A stretch of DNA of 64,000 nucleotides, taken from positions 124,001-188,000 of the forward strand of contig JAUXYA010000021.1 of assembly GCA_030684405.1 (NCBI GenBank), given 5' to 3'. How positions within the stretch are numbered: position 1 is the first letter of the stretch; each line of letters starts with the position of its first letter. Shown here in pieces: positions 2,285-63,440 of this stretch. The stretch is from Burkholderiales bacterium (GTDB taxonomy: Bacteria > Pseudomonadota > Gammaproteobacteria > Burkholderiales > SG8-41). The notes under the pieces were generated by a model that ran no database searches, was not told the origin of the DNA, and was given only the letters and a program-made list of their open reading frames with translations. Both the position numbers and the translations under genes were made by a program.

Positions 2285-2318
2285 CAATAAAAAAATAAAT
2301 AAAAACAAATAGTTACAA
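2285..2318 (-). repeat. AT-rich intergenic element, type A, copy 1
   Basis: On the minus strand the core at 2298-2318 reads TAACTATTTGTTTTTATT followed by a second T-run. It lies between the yciO stop (2410) and the trpS start (2237), with its T-rich strand running in the direction of both genes. Six related copies occur in the window (see the other repeat entries). No GC-rich hairpin is present, so it is not a standard intrinsic terminator. Confidence 0.7.
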
Positions 2319-2409
2319 GCATTGCTCAGCCAGGCAATAGCATCGCCAGACTGCGGATTTTAGCCGATGTGCCATGCCCGCATCCCAAGATGATGATTTT
2401 CCGAATCTT

Positions 2410-3033
2410 TTACAGGCCCAGCGGCGCCAGAGGACCCTTGCCGGCACGGACCAGCACAGGCGCCTCTCCGCTCAAATCGACCACCGTGGACGGCTCGATA
2501 CCGCAGGAGCCGCCATCGAGCACCAGATCGACCTGGTGTTCGAGACGGTCGCGGATTTCCACTGCGTCGGTATGTGGCAGTTCATCACCTGGCAGCAGCA
2601 ATGTGGAGGACAGGATCGGCTCTCCAAGTTCGGCGAGCAAGGCATCCACCACCGGGTGATCGGGAATCCGCAATCCTATGGTTCGCCGCTTCGGATGGTG
2701 CAGGCGTTTCGGCAGTTCGCGAGTCGCTTCAAGAATGAAAACATAGCTGCCGGGTGTCGCTGCCTTGAGCAAGCGGAACTGCTTGTTATCGACCCGGGCA
2801 TAGGTGGACAACTCCGACAAGTCGCGGCACACCAATGTCAGGTGATGCTTGTCATCAACGCCACGGATCGCGCGTACCCGCTCCATCGCACCCTTGTCGC
2901 CGATATGGCAACCCAGCGCGTAACAGGAGTCTGTGGGATAAACAATGATGCCACCTGCGCGAATGATGTCTGCAGCGCGCCGGATCAGCCGCAGTTGAGG
3001 ATTCTCCGGATGAATTGCAAAAAACTGCGACAT
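2410..3033 (-). CDS. yciO: YciO-type Sua5/YrdC family protein
   Basis: The 207-residue protein is a single YrdC-like domain. The N-terminus MSQFFAIHPENPQ and the segment GGIIVYPTDSCYALGC match the YciO branch rather than TsaC. YrdC/Sua5 relatives make threonylcarbamoyl-adenylate for the t6A37 tRNA modification; E. coli YciO is a paralogue with weak or uncertain activity in that pathway. The nucleotide/threonine-binding loop (KHHLTLVCRDLSELS) and the segment CGIEPSTVVDLSG near the C-terminus are both present. It lies 30 nt downstream of yciV and upstream of trpS, a common arrangement. Exact biochemical role is uncertain. Confidence 0.93.
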   Translation of the reverse strand: MSQFFAIHPENPQLRLIRRAADIIRAGGIIVYPTDSCYALGCHIGDKGAMERVRAIRGVDDKHHLTLVCRDLSELSTYARVDNKQFRLLKAATPGSYVFILEATRELPKRLHHPKRRTIGLRIPDHPVVDALLAELGEPILSSTLLLPGDELPHTDAVEIRDRLEHQVDLVLDGGSCGIEPSTVVDLSGEAPVLVRAGKGPLAPLGL

Positions 3034-3063
3034 ACCGTGAAATTCGCTGCAGCGATCCGGTGG

Positions 3064-3891
3064 TCAGAACCCGGACCAGACGGGAGTGCAACCTGCCGGC
3101 AGTACCGGCACATTGCCGATATCTCGATAGCTTTCGCCCGGCCCGTGAAAATCCGAGCCTGCCGAAGCCCGCAGGCCATAGCGGCGGGCATAACGTGCCC
3201 AGGTCACAAACTCATCCGGCGCATGGGAACCGGTCACCACTTCGACGGCCGCCCCACCAAGCGCCACGAATTCTTCGAGCAGGCTCTCGCACTGCTGCTG
3301 GTTCAGCGGATAGCGTCCCGGGTGCGCCAGCACCGCCACTCCGCCGCTGCCGGCTATCCAGGTCAGCGCATCCTGGAGTCCTGCCCATTGGTGCGGCACG
3401 TAGCCGGGCTTGCCTGGTACCAGATAGCTGCGGAACACCGCATTCGTATCCCGTGCATGCCCGGTTTCGACCAGGTAGCGCGCGAAATGAGCACGGCTCA
3501 CCAGTTCGGGATTCTTGGCATATCGTCGTGCGCCTTCCAGCGTGTCAGCGATGCCGGCGTCGGCCAGGCTTGCCGCGATGCGCTGAGCACGCTGCTCCCT
3601 GCCGGAGCGGATGCCCGCAAGTCCCTCGACCAGTGGCGCATGAGCGGGATCGATACACAGGCCGACGATATGCAGAGTCACCGACTCCCATTGAACCGAG
3701 ATCTCCACGCCATTGATCAGTCGCAAACCCCAGGCCGCCGCGGCTTCGCGCGCAGCCGGAAGCCCGCCAACCTCATCGTGATCGGTCAGTGCCAGCATGT
3801 CGACGCCCCTTTGCAGGGCACGCTCCACGAGTGCTTCCGGACTCAGGATGCCATCGGAATACGTCGAGTGGCTGTGCAAATCTACTTTCAT
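3064..3891 (-). CDS. yciV: PHP-domain phosphoesterase, YciV/RNase AM type
   Basis: A 275-residue PHP-domain metal-dependent phosphoesterase. The N-terminal metal site MKVDLHSHSTYSDG and ALTDHDEVGGL, the middle GVEIS, and the C-terminal LAHPGRYP and GSDFHG carry the His/Asp/Glu ligands expected for a trinuclear site. YciV (TrpH, RNase AM) proteins remove nucleotides from 5' ends of RNA fragments and hydrolyse 3',5'-nucleoside bisphosphates. It is the first gene of the yciV-yciO-trpS run; a candidate promoter lies about 40 nt upstream of its start. The start ATG at 3891 places DLHSHS at residue 4, as usual in the family. Confidence 0.93.
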   Translation of the reverse strand: MKVDLHSHSTYSDGILSPEALVERALQRGVDMLALTDHDEVGGLPAAREAAAAWGLRLINGVEISVQWESVTLHIVGLCIDPAHAPLVEGLAGIRSGREQRAQRIAASLADAGIADTLEGARRYAKNPELVSRAHFARYLVETGHARDTNAVFRSYLVPGKPGYVPHQWAGLQDALTWIAGSGGVAVLAHPGRYPLNQQQCESLLEEFVALGGAAVEVVTGSHAPDEFVTWARYARRYGLRASAGSDFHGPGESYRDIGNVPVLPAGCTPVWSGF

Positions 3892-3931
3892 TAAAACCCA
3901 ATAAAATCAATAAATTAGAAACCTGTAGTAC

Positions 3932-3959
3932 ATGATACCAAAGTGGTTCCGCCCTGCAA
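3932..3959 (-). promoter_or_regulatory. Candidate sigma-70 promoter for yciV-yciO-trpS
   Basis: Minus strand reads TTGCAG, 16 nt, TATCAT, with the -10 element about 40 nt before the yciV ATG. Four of six -35 bases and five of six -10 bases match the consensus. Position and spacing fit, but no experimental support is available. Confidence 0.45.
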
Positions 3960-4127
3960 GCTTCGGACCGCAAATGCTGGCACTGCCGCAAAAGCGCAGC
4001 GCAAGCGGCGCGACGGTCAGCGCCACATCACGGGTAGTGAGCTGCGCGGACTGCACGTTGCGGAAACTGCAGGAACATCGCACACAACCGTCAGCCATTC
4101 GGTTCGCTGCACGCGCAGCGTTCCAGA

Positions 4128-4156
4128 TCGGCATCTCAAGACCGTTCAGTTATACT
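4128..4156 (+). promoter_or_regulatory. Candidate sigma-70 promoter for the membrane protein at 4189
   Basis: TCGGCA, 17 nt, TATACT; four and five matches to the -35 and -10 consensus. The -10 ends 32 nt before the start codon. The remaining spacer between the divergent genes (3892-4188) shows no other recognisable feature apart from a weak AT-rich stretch at 3899-3921. Confidence 0.45.
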
Positions 4157-4188
4157 GAATTCCAGTCGATTCCGCATTCATTGCCGAA

Positions 4189-4743
4189 ATGAACAGGGCC
4201 CAGCGCATCGCATTAATAATCGCAGCAGTCAACCTGCTACTGATCGCGCTATTTCCCCCGATCGACCAGTATTCCATTGCTTCGGCCGCTACTCCCATAT
4301 TTGCCGGCTTTCATTTTGCGTTCAGCATCCCGCCGCTGGCGCAGGTCAATGGCGACTTGTTGGCAATCGCCGTCCTGGTGGTGCTCTGCAACCTCGCTAT
4401 TGCCTGGCTGCTGCTGCGCGAACGCCCGGCTGCCGAACGCCCGCGCAGGCTCGGACTGCAAAATGCTGCCCTGTTTTTCACCGGCGCCAACCTGGTACTG
4501 ATGCTGCTGTTCCCGCCGATGGAGTCGGTGTTCGCACTGACCCGGGCCGCGATCCCGACCTTCGAGGGTTTCTATTTCATTTTTTCGCGCAAGCCCGCTC
4601 ACGTGATCGTCGAGACGCTGCTGTACCTGGAAATCACGTTCATCCTGGCCAATGGCGCACTGCTGTGGCTGCTTTTCCGCGAGAGGCGGCCACCCAGCGC
4701 CGAAGAAGTGCGCGCCGCGATGCGGCAATTCACGCCGAGGTAA
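4189..4743 (+). CDS. Small inner-membrane protein built from two tandem repeats
   Basis: I do not recognise a named family. The 184 residues fall into two halves of about 85 residues that are clearly related: NLLLIALFPPID with TPIFAGFHFAFS in the first and NLVLMLLFPPME with IPTFEGFYFIFS in the second. Each half ends in a hydrophobic helix followed by LLLRER or LLFRER. This predicts four membrane helices at about 5-22, 57-77, 92-109 and 140-163, with a conserved FPP turn followed by a periplasmic or cytoplasmic loop. The C-terminus is short and polar. Its 3' end overlaps the convergent HNH gene by 14 nt. Function unknown. Confidence 0.8.
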   Translation: MNRAQRIALIIAAVNLLLIALFPPIDQYSIASAATPIFAGFHFAFSIPPLAQVNGDLLAIAVLVVLCNLAIAWLLLRERPAAERPRRLGLQNAALFFTGANLVLMLLFPPMESVFALTRAAIPTFEGFYFIFSRKPAHVIVETLLYLEITFILANGALLWLLFRERRPPSAEEVRAAMRQFTPR

Positions 4744-5362
4744 ATGCCGGAGAATGGTGCAGGCGGCTTTGCGCCGGCACATGCTGGGAGAGGAATTCCA
4801 TCTGATCTGCAAGAATGCGACGGTTCGTCAGGATCAGGTATTCGGCGCGGTTCGGGACATACGGCAGGTAGACCAGTTCCATTCCGGCGCCTTCGGGCGT
4901 CCGGTCGCTCTTGCGCTCATTGCAGGCACGGCAGGCTGTCACCACGTTCATCCAGGTATCGCGCCCGCCCTTGGAAAACGGCACGATATGGTCACGCGTG
5001 AGCCGCGCACTGGCAAAGCCCTGTGCGCAATAGGCGCAGATCTGGCGATCACGGTGAAACAGCTCGCGGTTGCTGAGCGGCGGCACCTGATTGAATGAAC
5101 GCATCGCCATCGCCTTACCCTTGATGGCAATGATGCTCGCCCCACTGATCATGGATCGCTCGCCGGTCAGGCGGTTCAGGCCGCCATGCACGGTAAAGGC
5201 CTCCCGGCCGATACTCCAGGCAACCCGGTTCTTGGCATAGTAATAGCAGGCGTGCTGCCAACTGATCCACCGGTGCGGAATGCCATGGGTATCCAGCGTC
5301 AGGATCAGCGGAAAGAGGCTGACAGCAGCAGGGTCCTTCGATGTCAGGTAGTCGCCATCCAT
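4730..5362 (-). CDS. HNH endonuclease family protein
   Basis: About 210 residues. The C-terminal half has a classic HNH/zinc module: CAYC, then LTRDHIVPFSKGG, then CRAC followed by NERKSDRTPEEA-like sequence (here RTPEGAG). This is the housekeeping HNH protein common in betaproteobacteria, usually single copy, with an N-terminal region (RWISWQHACYYYAKN) typical of that group. I chose the ATG at 5362, which has GGAG about 13 nt upstream; the frame extends to a TTG at 5410, but that would add an atypical N-terminus. Biological substrate is unknown; nothing nearby suggests restriction or a mobile intron. Confidence 0.85.
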   Translation of the reverse strand: MDGDYLTSKDPAAVSLFPLILTLDTHGIPHRWISWQHACYYYAKNRVAWSIGREAFTVHGGLNRLTGERSMISGASIIAIKGKAMAMRSFNQVPPLSNRELFHRDRQICAYCAQGFASARLTRDHIVPFSKGGRDTWMNVVTACRACNERKSDRTPEGAGMELVYLPYVPNRAEYLILTNRRILADQMEFLSQHVPAQSRLHHSPAFTSA

Positions 5363-9454: not shown

Positions 9455-9931
9455 ATGAGGGTCTGGGTCGATGCGGACGCCTGTCCTGGCGTGATCAAGG
9501 ACATCCTGTACCGTGCTGCCGAGCGGGCAGGTTTTCCGCTCATCCTCGTCGCCAACCGCGCATTACAGGTGCCCCGCTCGCCCTGGATTCGGATGATTCA
9601 GGTTTCCCGCGGATTCGATGTCGCCGACAATCACATCGTCGCCGATTCGAGCCCGGGCGACCTCGTGATCACCGCCGACATTCCGCTGGCGGCCGCTGTT
9701 GTCGGCAAAGCGGTCTCAGCGCTGAATCCGCGCGGAGAGCTCTACACCCCGGACAACGTGCAGGGGTTGCTCGACATGCGCAACTTCATGGACAGCCTGC
9801 GCAGCAGCGGTGTTGAGACCGGTGGTCCACGCGCCCTCAACAGCGGCGATCGTCAGCGTTTTGCCGGCGCCCTCGAACGTTGGATCAGCTCGCTCCCTGC
9901 GGAAGATAAAAATATCAATAAAAACAAATAG
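9455..9931 (+). CDS. UPF0178 (DUF188, YaiI/YqxD) family protein
   Basis: A 158-residue protein of the DUF188 family, a PIN-like fold. The conserved start [11 protein letters not shown], the ANRALQVP segment, [24 protein letters not shown] and [16 protein letters not shown] are all present. Acidic residues in the first and third segments resemble metal-binding PIN nuclease sites, but activity is not established. The gene sits 16 nt after the rhodanese gene. Its final residues, DKNINKNK, and its stop codon are encoded by the AT-rich repeat at 9905-9937, so the natural C-terminus seems to have been replaced or extended by that element. Confidence 0.92.
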
Positions 9932-9937
9932 TTATCG
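9905..9937 (-). repeat. AT-rich intergenic element, type A, copy 2
   Basis: Minus strand core at 9917-9937 is TAACTATTTGTTTTTATT followed by GATATTTTTAT. It starts about 25 nt after the stop of the minus-strand tctC gene (9962) and overlaps the last codons and TAG stop of the plus-strand UPF0178 gene. Confidence 0.75.
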
Positions 9938-9961
9938 ATTTACTGCGCACAGACTCCAGCT

Positions 9962-14018: not shown

Positions 14019-14996
14019 TCAGTCGATGGCCGCACCACTGGCCTTGACCACCTTGGCCCACTTCGCCGACTCCACTTTCAGGAAGTCGAAGAACCTCTCC
14101 GGGTTGTCCTGCCAGGCCGGCTCCTGACCCACGGCCTGCAGGCTACGACCCATCTCCGGCGTTTTCAGCACACTGACGAGATCAGCGTAAAGCTTGAGCT
14201 GGATGTCACGGGGCAGACCTTTCGGCCCTGACACGCCAAACCAGGCCACCATTTCATAACCCTTGACGCCCGCCTCGGCGATCGTCGGCACGTTCGGCAG
14301 TTCCGGCGAGCGCTTGCTGCCAGTGACGCCGAGCGGCCTGAGCTTGCCCGTCCTGATATGCGGCAGCATGCCGGCGATACCGGGAAATGCGACCTGAACC
14401 TGACCGCCGAGCAAGTCAGAGGTCACCGGACCGCTGCCGCGATAGGGTATGTGGGTCATGTTGATGCCGGCCATGCTGGCAAACAACGCGCCCGTCAGGT
14501 GCTGGGTGCTGCCGTTGCCCGAGGACGCGTAGTCAATCTGTCCGGGGCGCGCCTTGGCCAGCGCGATGAGGTCCTTGACCGACCTCACCGGTAGCGACGG
14601 ATGCACCACCAGCACATTCGGCGCACTGGTGATCTGGGTCACCGGGGTGAAATCGTTCAGAGAGTCGTACGCGAGCTTGCGGTGCAGGGCTGCACTGACG
14701 AAATGCGTGTTGCTGATCATGAATATCGTGTAGCCATCCGGCGCCGACTTTGCCGCGAGGTCGGCACCGATGGTAGATCCTGCGCCCGGACGGTTCTCGA
14801 CGATCACCTGCTGGCGCAGCGCCTCGCCCAGTTTCTGGGTGACAATGCGCCCCGGCACATCTGCCGCACCCCCCGCCGAGAACGGGATGATCATGCGTAC
14901 GGGTTTGGACGGATAACCCTGGGCCGACACCAAAACTGCAAAGCCGCCCACCATCGCTGCCGATATCAGAATTATCGTGTATCTAATTGATTTCAT
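14019..14996 (-). CDS. TctC/Bug-family periplasmic solute receptor
   Basis: A 325-residue receptor with an N-terminal signal peptide (IILISAAMVGGFAVLVSAQ) and the family motifs VRMIIPFSAGGAADV, VIVENRPGAGS, DGYTIF and NVLVVHPSLPVRSVKDLIAL. It is a close paralogue of the receptor at 12925. The loops that line the ligand site differ (for example SNTHFVSAAL against ATPFVVSPHV), so the two probably bind different molecules. It ends with the terminator at 13961. Confidence 0.95.
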   Translation of the reverse strand: MKSIRYTIILISAAMVGGFAVLVSAQGYPSKPVRMIIPFSAGGAADVPGRIVTQKLGEALRQQVIVENRPGAGSTIGADLAAKSAPDGYTIFMISNTHFVSAALHRKLAYDSLNDFTPVTQITSAPNVLVVHPSLPVRSVKDLIALAKARPGQIDYASSGNGSTQHLTGALFASMAGINMTHIPYRGSGPVTSDLLGGQVQVAFPGIAGMLPHIRTGKLRPLGVTGSKRSPELPNVPTIAEAGVKGYEMVAWFGVSGPKGLPRDIQLKLYADLVSVLKTPEMGRSLQAVGQEPAWQDNPERFFDFLKVESAKWAKVVKASGAAID

Positions 14997-15105
14997 TTAA
15001 ATTTATCCACGAGAGTAACGGGAAATCAAGAGGCGCAATGATATCACTGCATACTTGCACTGACCTGCTGACATCATTCGCCGTCGCGCTTATGGAGATT
15101 TACCC

Positions 15106-23711: not shown

Positions 23712-23745
23712 ATATAAAAATACTAATAAAAACAAATACTTATAA
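23712..23745 (-). repeat. AT-rich intergenic element, type A, copy 3
   Basis: Minus strand core at 23725-23745: TAAGTATTTGTTTTTATT followed by AGTATTTTTAT. It lies about 110 nt after the stop of the minus-strand gene at 23855 and upstream of the clpB heat-shock promoter. The rest of this spacer (23746-23854) shows no feature. Confidence 0.75.
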
Positions 23746-23854
23746 TTTTTCTACGACTTCGGTCACTGTTTCATGACCCAGGCAACCAAACTGCGAAAAT
23801 GCGCCTGGATCGCTGCAGCCGATGCCGCAACACAAGATCACAGACCATAACGCA

Positions 23855-26290: not shown

Positions 26291-26306
26291 ATACAGCGGC
26301 ACACCA

Positions 26307-26340
26307 CGATAAGTAATTGTTTTTAAACGTTTTTTAATTC
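26307..26340 (+). repeat. AT-rich intergenic element, type B, copy 5
   Basis: Plus strand: ATAAGTAATTGTTTTTAAAC followed by GTTTTTTAAT, 17 nt after the nadC stop and running into the thrC stop codon. It differs from type A by GTTTTTAAACG in place of GTTTTTATT; the copy at 45640 shares this variant. Confidence 0.6.
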
Positions 26341-37422: not shown

Positions 37423-39370
37423 TTCGCATCCGCTCGGCATGCGCGACATCCACTGGCTGAGCGCGACATTCCTGCTCGCCGCGGCCCCTCACTTGCTGCG
37501 CATGCCGCTGTGGATATCGGCACTGGTGACCGTCATCGCCGCCATCCGCGTACTGCAGGTTCGCCTGCGTTTCGCGCTGCCGCGAAAATGGCTGCTGGCT
37601 CTGATCGCTGTAGCCGCAGCCGGCGGCATTCTGCTGCAATACCGCACGTTATTCGGCCGGGATGCCGGCGTTTCCCTGCTGGTCATCATGCTGGCGCTGA
37701 AACTGCTGGAAACGCATAGCCGACGCGACGGCATGCTGCTGGGCTTCCTCGGCTGCTTCCTGCTGGTCACCAATTTCCTGCATTCCCAGACCATCCCGAC
37801 AGCGCTGTTCATGCTGATCTGCGCCTGGCTGCTCCTCGCCACCCTGATCGGCATGCAGTACACGGGAATCTGGCCGGGGTGGCGGCAGCAACTGCAGCGC
37901 TCCGGCGTCCTGCTGGTGCAGGCGGTGCCTCTGATGGCCGTGCTGTTCCTGCTGTTCCCGAGGGTACAGGGTCCTCTTTGGGGGCTGCCGCAGGACGCCT
38001 ACGCCGGCCTGAGCGGGCTTTCCGACAACATGAGTCCGGGCAGCCTGAACAACTTGATCCTGTCCTACGACGTCGCCTTCCGTGCTGAATTCAAGGACGG
38101 CAAAACGCCCGACGCCAAGGACCTCTACTGGCGCGGCCCCGTGCTGTGGGACTACGACGGGCGCACCTGGACGGCGCCGCGGCTGACCCAGAGCAACGAA
38201 GACCTGCCGGAGACAGGCGATCTCGAATACACGGTAACCCTCGAGCCGCACAACAAGCGTTGGCTGTTCGCGCTCGAATTTCCCGGTCAGCGGCCGCCGC
38301 GCGCAATCGCGACACGCGACATGCAGTTGCTTAGCTTCACGCCGGTGCGCAGCCGCATGCGTTACGACATGACTTCGGCGATCGGCGTGGCCTATGGTGC
38401 CGACGAGGATCGTTCGGTGCTGGCGCGGTCGCTGCGGCTGCCCGCCACCAGTAACCCGCGCACTGGCAACTTTGCCGCGGAGCTGCGCAGCAGGCACCGC
38501 GAGGACCGTGATCTGGTGACAGCAGTGCTGAACCTGTTCCGCACCGAAAATTTCGTTTACACGCTGACGCCACCACTACTGGGCGAGCACCCGGTGGACG
38601 AGTTTCTCTTCGAAACGCGCCGCGGGTTCTGTGAACACTATGCATCCGCATTCACGGTGCTGATGCGTGCCGCAGGCATTCCGGCGCGTGTGGTCACCGG
38701 CTACCAAGGCGGCGAGATCAACCCTGTCGGCGGCTATATCCTGGTGCGCCAGGCCGATGCCCATGCCTGGGTCGAAGTCTGGCTGGAGAACACCGGCTGG
38801 GTGCGCGTCGATCCGACCGCTGCGGTATCACCGGCCCGGGTGGAGCGCGGCATCGCATCGGCCCTGCCGCGCAGCGATCCCCTGCCCATGTTCGTGCGTG
38901 GGGACTTTGCCATGCTGCAGAGGATGCGGCTGACCTGGGACTCGATCACCTATTCCTGGAACCAGTGGGTGCTGGGTTACAACCCTGAGCGGCAACGGCT
39001 TTTCCTGAGCCAACTCGGCTTCAGCGAAGCCAGTTGGCAGACCATCTCCGTAGTGCTGCTGGTGTTTGCCGGCATTGCCGTGCTGATCGGGGCCGGCCTT
39101 GCACTACGTGACCTGCGCGGCGTGCGCGCGGATCCGGCAAAGCGTGCGTATGAGCGTTTCTGCCGCAAGCTTGCCCAACGCGGATTGCCGCGAGGTGCTG
39201 CCGAAGGTCCGCGAGTATTTGCCCGCCGTGCGACACAACAACGCCCGGATCTTGCCGCCGCAATCGAGGACATCACCGCGCTTTATGTCGGACTGCGTTA
39301 TGCCGAGAACAGTAGCGACGCGGAAACACTGCGGCGGTTCAAACAGCGCATACGCGTGTTTAAACCATAA
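37397..39370 (+). CDS. TgpA-type membrane transglutaminase (DUF3488)
   Basis: The ATG at 37397 gives 657 residues; an alternative start is the ATG at 37439. The N-terminal third has about six membrane helices (DUF3488), followed by a periplasmic transglutaminase-like domain. Its catalytic triad is visible: C412 in [10 protein letters not shown], His in [10 protein letters not shown] and Asp in [10 protein letters not shown] further helix lies near 565-590, with a cytoplasmic DUF4129-like tail. The Pseudomonas homologue TgpA is an essential periplasmic transglutaminase. The substrate is probably an envelope component. The upstream part of the frame is antisense-like overlap with the DUF58 gene and not used. 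Confidence 0.92.
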
Positions 39371-39400
39371 TACTCAATAAAAACAAATAGTTATAAACTA
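39371..39400 (-). repeat. AT-rich intergenic element, type A, copy 4
   Basis: Minus strand core at 39376-39396: TTATAACTATTTGTTTTTAT. It fills the entire 27 nt between the convergent tgpA and nlpD stops. In this copy ATAGTT / AACTAT (39388-39402) forms a 6 bp hairpin directly before the T-run, which makes a weak terminator-like structure for nlpD. Confidence 0.8.
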
Positions 39401-45580: not shown

Positions 45581-45639
45581 GCTGGCAGGCCCTCCTCCAC
45601 CACGACACGGCCAGCAGCCAGTGAGGCGCCGACAATTCT

Positions 45640-45675
45640 ATATAAGCATATGTTTTTAAACGATTTTAATGATTT
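45640..45675 (+). repeat. AT-rich intergenic element, type B, copy 6
   Basis: Plus strand: TATAAGCATATGTTTTTAAA followed by CGATTTTAATGATTTT. It lies between two minus-strand genes, so it is the only copy whose T-rich strand does not follow a gene end on its own strand. It shares GTTTTTAAACG with the nadC copy. Confidence 0.5.
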
Positions 45676-46589: not shown

Positions 46590-46668
<79 letters not shown>

Positions 46669-54230: not shown

Positions 54231-54307
54231 TGGTAGGCGCGATTGGACTCGAACCAACGACCCCCACCATGTCAAGGTGGTGCTCTAACCAGCTGAGCTA
54301 CGCGCCT
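54231..54307 (-). tRNA. tRNA-Val (anticodon GAC)
   Basis: A 77 nt cloverleaf with acceptor AGGCGCG/CGCGCCT, discriminator A and encoded CCA; anticodon stem CCACC/GGTGG with loop TTGACAT (GAC); T loop TTCGAGT. It lies between relA and thrS on the same strand. Confidence 0.97.
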
Positions 54308-63400: not shown

Positions 63401-63403
63401 TAA

Positions 63404-63440
63404 TTTTAAGTACTTGTTTTTATTAATTTTTTAATTATTT
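63404..63440 (+). repeat. AT-rich intergenic element, type A, copy 7
   Basis: Plus strand: TTTTAAGTACTTGTTTTTAT followed by AATTTTTTAATTATTTTA, starting 4 nt after the stop of the transglutaminase gene. AAGTACTT is a small perfect palindrome directly before GTTTTTATT, as in other type A copies. Confidence 0.75.

Follow-up and report, generated by a model that had tools for sequence, protein, structure and literature searches.

The locus considered here raises the question of why one short AT-rich sequence should recur at the junctions between genes in a chromosome that is otherwise rich in GC. The sequence was encountered in a stretch of 64 kb (the window, i.e. the whole stretch of DNA that was analysed; about 61% GC) from the genome of a betaproteobacterium (the host, G000; 3.74 Mb in 37 contigs, 61-62% GC), where one of its copies occupies a gap of 27 nt between two convergent genes. 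A sequence-only reading of the window had described seven such copies as a new-looking AT-rich repeat family at gene ends and had offered three explanations for it, namely an unusual termination or 3'-processing signal, a nucleoid-protein or silencing site, and the relic of a mobile element. By mapping the motif over the host genome and the genomes of its relatives, we came to favour an explanation that was absent from that list and that fits the data best: the motif is probably an independently evolved, candidate genome-wide tag for DNA uptake, acting like the uptake sequences (USS) of the Pasteurellaceae.

A short AT-rich motif with a conserved core and two T tracts

All seven copies reported earlier are present in the window. 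Six of them match TAASTATTTGTTTTTATT with at most 3 mismatches (6 matches in the window versus 0.01 expected in shuffles) and the remaining one, at 45640, has 4 mismatches. A weight matrix (see below) recovers all seven as members of one family, together with two copies that had been overlooked:

2286..2319, minus strand: motif copy in the gap from which trpS (-) and a plus-strand ORF without family match diverge; score 33.3
3888..3921, minus strand: overlooked motif copy at the end of the plus-strand ORF 2374-3894, antisense to that ORF; score 14.0
9905..9938, minus strand: motif copy that lies in a convergent gap and overlaps a YaiI/YqxD-family gene at its end; score 35.0
14976..15009, plus strand: overlooked weak motif copy in a divergent gap; score 10.7
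23713..23746, minus strand: motif copy between two minus-strand genes, one glutamate-synthase-like and the other clpB; score 35.2
26306..26339, plus strand: motif copy in the gap where nadC (+) and a threonine synthase gene (-) converge; score 21.7
39364..39397, minus strand: motif copy in the 27-nt gap that separates two convergent genes, one for a TgpA-like transglutaminase (+) and one for a LysM/M23 peptidase (-), with its core at 39376-39393; score 31.2
45639..45672, plus strand: weak motif copy flanked by genes for a carbon-nitrogen hydrolase and an acyltransferase and antisense to both of them; score 9.4
63403..63436, plus strand: motif copy directly 3' of the stop codon of a DUF2126/transglutaminase gene; score 31.0

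Two tRNA genes (identified with Rfam) are also located in the window, at 46595-46668 and 54234-54307, both on the minus strand.

Over the complete host genome, TAASTATTTGTTTTTATT with at most 3 mismatches yields 246 copies, versus 2 for the reversed pattern. The weight matrix was built from 73 close copies and then frozen, and positions with a score >4 were counted as sites; an iterated matrix drifted towards generic AT-rich sequence, and its matches were discarded in favour of those of the frozen one. In a host sample of 1.096 Mb (contigs C33 and C6 and the first 400 kb of C36) the frozen matrix identifies 127 sites, versus a single one when the same threshold is applied to the reversed sequence. 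A relative (G039) contains 919 copies at no more than 2 mismatches, versus 1 for the reversed pattern (about 1,700 copies by extrapolation), and a matrix retrained on this genome recovers 118 sites in 380 kb of it versus 0 in the reversed sequence. The earlier claim of a new-looking repeat family enriched at gene ends is correct, and both the genome scan and the enrichment tests (see the next section) were positive.

The unit measures 30-35 bp, has AT-rich edges and reads roughly TATAASTAnTTGwTTTTATTgATwwTTTTA, with TAASTAnTTG as the core. Positions A1, T8, G9, T11 and T12 are near-invariant, position 3 is mostly G (45%) or C (42%), and positions 5 and 6 are variable. The G that had been noted as conserved is G9, and its conservation was confirmed in the additional copies; the small palindrome that had been noted along with it is not conserved, as core positions 5 and 6 vary. 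The frequency of T peaks at positions 11-14 and 23-25, which yields two T tracts 12 nt apart, and the second T run described before is thereby confirmed, as are the AT-richness within a GC-rich genome, the lack of a GC stem and the location at gene junctions. Conservation is scarce beyond about -8 or +31, and conserved flanks are lacking. The motif carries about 44 bits of information (over 50 columns of matrix-selected matches, hence biased upward), versus the roughly 14 bits that would be enough to locate that many sites. When perfect cores were compared with singly mismatched ones, the latter were commoner in all 12 word tests on the basis of raw counts; after subtraction of the reversed control, perfect cores were ahead in 1 of 6 tests in the host and in 3 of 6 in G039. 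A recurrent variant, with TTTTTAAAC replacing TTTTTATTG, was observed at the nadC junction (window 26310-26327), in congener copies and elsewhere, and possibly represents a second subtype of the motif.

Placement relative to genes

Genes were called on the draft assemblies by means of a home-made codon-usage script in place of a standard gene finder. Taking the T-rich strand as the reference, the 127 host sites divide into 39 antisense and 32 sense sites in tandem gaps, 22 convergent and 18 divergent sites and 16 sites inside ORFs, and the 118 sites in G039 into 35 tandem sense, 32 tandem antisense, 14 convergent, 15 divergent, 19 inside ORFs and 3 at contig ends. The pooled tandem sites from these parts of the two genomes thus number 67 sense versus 71 antisense (p=0.80). 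It had been stated earlier that the T-rich strand follows the stop codon of a gene on the same strand in six of the seven copies. With the present gene calls this applies to five, the copy at 2298 being located in the divergent gap of trpS and the one at 45640 being antisense between two minus-strand genes; moreover, strand bias is absent over the 1.1 Mb (32 tandem sense and 39 tandem antisense). In view of the pooled ratio of 67 to 71 we consider the proposed strand rule an effect of small sample size. Similarly, the original seven copies do all lie between genes or over a stop codon, but this does not extend to the larger sample, in which 16 of the 127 copies are found inside ORFs, versus a coding fraction of 89%.

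Gaps between genes are occupied in 19 of 90 convergent, 65 of 460 tandem and 17 of 122 divergent cases (convergent versus divergent, p=0.20). The median distance to the stop codon is 28 nt for sense and 17 nt for antisense tandem sites, and within tandem gaps of at least 60 nt the stop-side half holds 35 of the 46 sites (76%, p=0.0005), a preference that is consistent with the avoidance of promoters and start regions. The genes hfq-hflX, tsf-pyrH, prfA-prmC, pheA-hisC and parA-parB are paired in many bacteria. In the host, copies of the motif fill gaps of 22-33 nt within the first four of these pairs (assigned by family matches), and a weak copy lies in the gap of a parA-parB-like pair, the ParA match of which is under the family cut-off. 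In such tight gaps the motif unit overlaps letters of the stop or start codon, and does so in either orientation.

The proximity to stop codons, the relatively high occupancy of convergent gaps and the fact that one of the strands would be U-rich are features one would expect of an unusual transcription terminator, a 3'-end signal or a bidirectional roadblock, and intrinsic terminators likewise have a T run near stop codons. Nevertheless, a role of this kind is quite unlikely, given that sense and antisense orientations are equally frequent, that copies also reside in divergent gaps and inside ORFs, that the difference between convergent and divergent gaps has a p of 0.20 and that sites are found within the 22-33 nt gaps of the four gene pairs (and, as a weak copy, within the parA-parB-like pair). 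Unlike intrinsic terminators, the motif has neither a GC stem nor a strand bias, and it occurs within operons. The termination or 3'-processing signal suggested earlier is thus unsupported, because a strand bias is lacking and copies are located within conserved operons.

The peptides encoded by ORF-internal copies, which are read in several frames, are unrelated, and in the frame in which the TAA of the core would be a stop codon, the codon specifies glutamine in 6 of 7 copies from both genomes (CAA in the four that come from the host) and tyrosine in the other. The motif is therefore a DNA-level signal that is fitted to local constraint.

Neighbouring copies share the same strand in 65 cases and are on opposite strands in 59. 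Chi and KOPS are replication-oriented motifs; a motif of that type was considered and rejected, since plus and minus copies are balanced per contig as well as against local GC skew. An A-rich RNA site of the Hfq/Crc type was considered too, and the equal use of both strands argues against such an RNA role. The A-rich strand of the motif does resemble a stretch in a P. aeruginosa estA reporter primer, as given in a part of PMC9890229.

Conservation at orthologous junctions and origin in place

The host was compared with stretches of five congeners at 112 orthologous junctions (gap of at least 15 nt, counted per genome), of which 92 have a copy in neither genome, 17 in both and 3 in one only. 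Orientation was kept in 17 of 17 agreeing pairs, which represent 8 distinct host junctions and hence are non-independent. For instance, the copy at 39364..39397 and its orientation are kept in each of the four congeners that yielded this junction (G004, G018, G006 and G019), and orientation at 26306..26339 is kept in three of three (G004, G006 and G019). The weak copy at 45639..45672 corresponds to stronger copies of equal orientation in G004, G018 and G006 and to a copy in G019; that at 9905..9938 is also present in G016, the sole congener where the junction was found, and the loci corresponding to 23713..23746 have copies or near copies with 0-4 mismatches. The copies at the clpB and nadC junctions recur throughout the host genus. 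In motif-free genera, where a replacement by a canonical hairpin was looked for at the nadC junction, the gene order around it differs.

At the conserved junctions the identity averages 69% within the motif and 54% in the 25-nt flanks, versus a background of 60% and 47%, respectively, for randomly paired non-orthologous sites (400 draws). Both values exceed the background by a modest margin only; most of the likeness between the flanks has gone, the motif has stayed recognisable, and in some orthologous pairs position 3 has switched between G and C. The copies have been built up in place: the ends of a 30-nt insert would not supply letters of the stop and start codons where genes are 22 nt apart, and therefore insertion is an unlikely explanation for them.

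A miniature mobile element, or a relic of one, would account for hundreds of similar copies with a patchy presence among genera, and REP/BIME and other miniature repeats indeed have many intergenic copies near gene ends, as the motif has. Such an origin is nonetheless very improbable, as the unit shares stop and start codon letters in gaps of 22 nt, its flanks are unconserved, and junctions and orientation are kept across congeners; a true long repeat, that of G202, is different in being over 100 bp with nearly identical copies. In contrast to REP/BIME, the motif shows no longer unit or hairpin, is not inserted and keeps its orthologous positions. A search for mobile-element features yielded no insert boundary, and the relic proposed earlier is unsupported, given the build-up in situ and the positions kept across congeners.

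Spacing along the chromosome

Copies avoid close neighbours. Successive copies are on average 8.65 kb apart in the host and 3.1 kb apart in G039. When occupied gaps were drawn at random within each gap class (1000 shuffles), about 17 of the 124 host intervals were expected to be shorter than 1.5 kb, versus 3 observed (0 of 1000 shuffles as low), the overall coefficient of variation (CV) being ordinary (0.95 versus 0.97). In G039, 7 of 113 intervals are shorter than 1 kb versus 23-24 expected, and the CV is 0.58 versus 0.90 (0 of 1000). The longest motif-free stretch in the host covers 77 kb of contig C6 and bears a prophage, the link with prophage coming from this one stretch, next to four further host stretches of more than 24 kb. 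Ten proteins encoded within it were compared with protein families; they comprise seven with matches to phage tail, head or primase families, one with a match to a phage family of unknown function, one with a match to an ATPase family classed as 'other' and one without a match. The prophage itself lies outside the window at about 61-111 kb of C6 and encodes, among others, tail fibre J, tape measure, head morphogenesis and primase proteins.

Spacing and the avoidance of prophage would also be expected of a chromosome-organising site. The main rival explanation is that a nucleoid or chromosome-organising protein specific to the lineage binds the motif, whose sites would be spaced along the chromosome and best tolerated at gene junctions; this is what survives of the nucleoid-protein or silencing site in the earlier reading. 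It agrees with a specific consensus that has phased AT tracts and is no stricter than that of a protein-binding site might be, with the lack of strand bias, the avoidance of close neighbours, the prophage stretch without copies and the sites kept at orthologous junctions, and such a site would share most of the marks of known uptake sequences. We consider it rather doubtful, as the ~44 bits are far above what a site with some 400 copies needs and as the distribution among relatives, described below, is odd for an architectural element.

Distribution among genomes

In a survey of 74 genomes of the family (no more than 2 mismatches), all 21 genomes of the host genus (g1) carry the motif, with 37-261 copies. 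Thirteen of the 14 genomes of genus g9 have 135-919 copies, one genome of g6 has 459, three of g7 have 16-39 and 15 of g2 have 0-13; the 20 genomes of genera g3, g4, g5 and g8 have 0-1. These sister genera with next to no matches, and the ranges of 9-919 and 37-261 among close relatives within g9 and g1, argue against the nucleoid site. The remaining member of g9, G327, has 9 matches in a genome that is 97% complete versus 135-919 in its 13 congeners, i.e. a near-total loss or a late gain within one genus. Smaller stretches of G040, G022 and G031 gave 0 matches to the host matrix.

At the level of the order, 250 genomes from 50 families were searched, and the 243 outside the carrier family have at most 7 matches, except for G202 with 23. 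The motif is thus abundant only in some genera of one family among the 50 families sampled. The 23 matches in G202 were rejected as copies of the motif, as they belong to an unrelated repeat. This repeat is uniform over more than 100 bp, has TAACTATTTGTGTTCATT in its middle in the 21 copies that were read and looks like a miniature element. On the basis of a ClpB comparison the host belongs to the Betaproteobacteria and adjoins the Burkholderiales assembly JAIESJ01, outside the named families that were sampled; in this connection, the genome behind locus L097 yields a match list identical to that of G032.

In the motif-free genome G027 (200 kb) and the low-copy genome G026 (100 kb), none of the top fifteen 11-mers is a USS-like word, these being ordinary overlapping repeats. 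Other over-represented words were noted in both genomes: G026 has GATTGGTGATT repeats, while those of G027 are TTTGCGTCCTT repeats. Viral contigs gave 0 exact matches to a 27-letter form of the motif, a form that few host copies match exactly.

Comparison with known uptake sequences

In the parts of PMC5031613 and PMC7811141 that deal with it, sequence-tagged uptake is attributed to two named families; the further statements on uptake sequences in this section likewise hold for parts of the papers cited. The DUS of the Neisseriaceae is the 12-mer ATGCCGTCTGAA with ComP as its receptor, and the receptor of the Pasteurellaceae was stated in 2016 to be unidentified (PMC5031613). USS and DUS occur at about 1 per kb, without significant orientation bias and with a spacing somewhat more regular than random; they prefer non-coding sequence with many copies in coding sequence, are over-represented in relatives and arise by mutation and not by copying (PMC1626085). 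As the motif shares most of these marks, i.e. over-representation, the lack of orientation bias, spacing, non-coding preference and origin by mutation, it can be read as an uptake signal. The candidate tag falls short on density and, in raw counts, on the excess of perfect cores. Its density is below the approximately 1 per kb of known uptake sequences, a value that is typical and not defining: the host has about one copy per 8.65 kb, and G039, which comes nearer, one per 3.1 kb. The excess of perfect over singly mismatched cores is reported to be strict in USS and DUS; in the motif it is absent from the raw counts and appears in some of the tests after subtraction of the reversed control, and the consensus is less strict.

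The closest resemblance is with the USS of the Pasteurellaceae, which have two AT segments 3' of the core with their centres 12 nt apart, approximately the spacing of a helical turn (PMC1626085), as also apparent from the 29-bp consensus aAAGTGCGGTnrwttttnnnnnnrwtttw of H. influenzae (PMC1939737). In the motif, too, two T tracts come after the core on the same strand, and their centres are separated by 12 nt (cf. PMC1626085, PMC1939737). The two moreover share the lack of orientation bias, a spacing more regular than random, the limitation to one family, the preference for non-coding sequence with some genic copies and the mutational origin in place. In contrast, the core TAASTAnTTG is unrelated to AAGTGCGGT or ACAAGCGGT, so that the motif is not a USS by sequence; furthermore, its T tract is directly beside the core, and it is AT-rich within a GC-rich genome. 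AT tracts have been linked to kinking during uptake (PMC7811141). The motif resembles the DUS in being betaproteobacterial, genome-wide and located in permissive regions, where DUS are found as well (PMC3630211). It differs in having no sequence similarity by eye and in having T tracts, the DUS being without flanking T tracts in the relevant part of PMC1626085. DUS also often form inverted pairs at terminators (PMC3630211), whereas 1 of 124 intervals between host copies is shorter than 1.3 kb.

We lean towards the view that the motif is a third, independent uptake tag outside the Pasteurellaceae and Neisseriaceae, in a betaproteobacterial family, that has converged on a core and two T tracts one helical turn apart. 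A literature search with the letters of the motif gave no paper on such a motif among the matches listed, and the matches on the topic of uptake sequences concern known families or unrelated subjects.

A proposed route of uptake and its machinery

As an uptake tag, the motif would mark self DNA for import in natural transformation. The core TAASTAnTTG would be recognised at the cell surface by a receptor belonging to the type IV pilus or the competence machinery, and the two T tracts one helical turn apart (approximately positions 10-14 and 22-26) would ease the bending or melting of the DNA, after which retraction of the pilus through PilQ and transport by ComEC would bring the tagged DNA in. 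Given such a receptor and such a preference in uptake, recombination would provide the drive that builds and maintains tags where they are least harmful, i.e. at gene junctions, on the stop-codon side of gaps and at some coding sites.

If this reading is true, the physics of pulling DNA through the pilus secretin, rather than common descent, would determine the layout of a core with two T tracts. The motif would also represent a third origin of tags, in which copies counted within one family are graded from 0 to 919 and a carrier genus includes a case of near-absence (G327), and would make possible direct tests of how tags spread, of how their spacing relates to fragment length and of which tag features are mechanically necessary. 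In addition, active natural transformation would be implied in a little-known group.

The machinery is encoded in the host, with comEC as an open frame of 801 aa and pilQ as one of 704. Among 49 genomes, comEC (TIGR00361) was found in 47, above the cut-off in 42, and pilQ (TIGR02515) in 45, above the cut-off in 41. Both are also present in members of the motif-free genera g3, g4 and g8, and therefore they permit the uptake reading but do not separate carriers from non-carriers. In G017, which with 37 copies has the fewest in the host genus, comEC appears to be broken up by a frame change, giving two open frames (474 and 358 aa) that overlap (G017:C4:57001-65000, local 2403-4812), compared to the single frame that the host and the congeners G006 and G011 have, with a length of about 800 aa. 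The combination of an apparently split comEC and few copies, in one draft genome where it may be an assembly error, parallels H. ducreyi, which has weak USS and broken competence genes according to a part of PMC1626085. Upstream of comEC, at a distance of about 1.3 kb, the host shares a copy of the motif with G006 and G011; at the end of the gene it shares another with G006.
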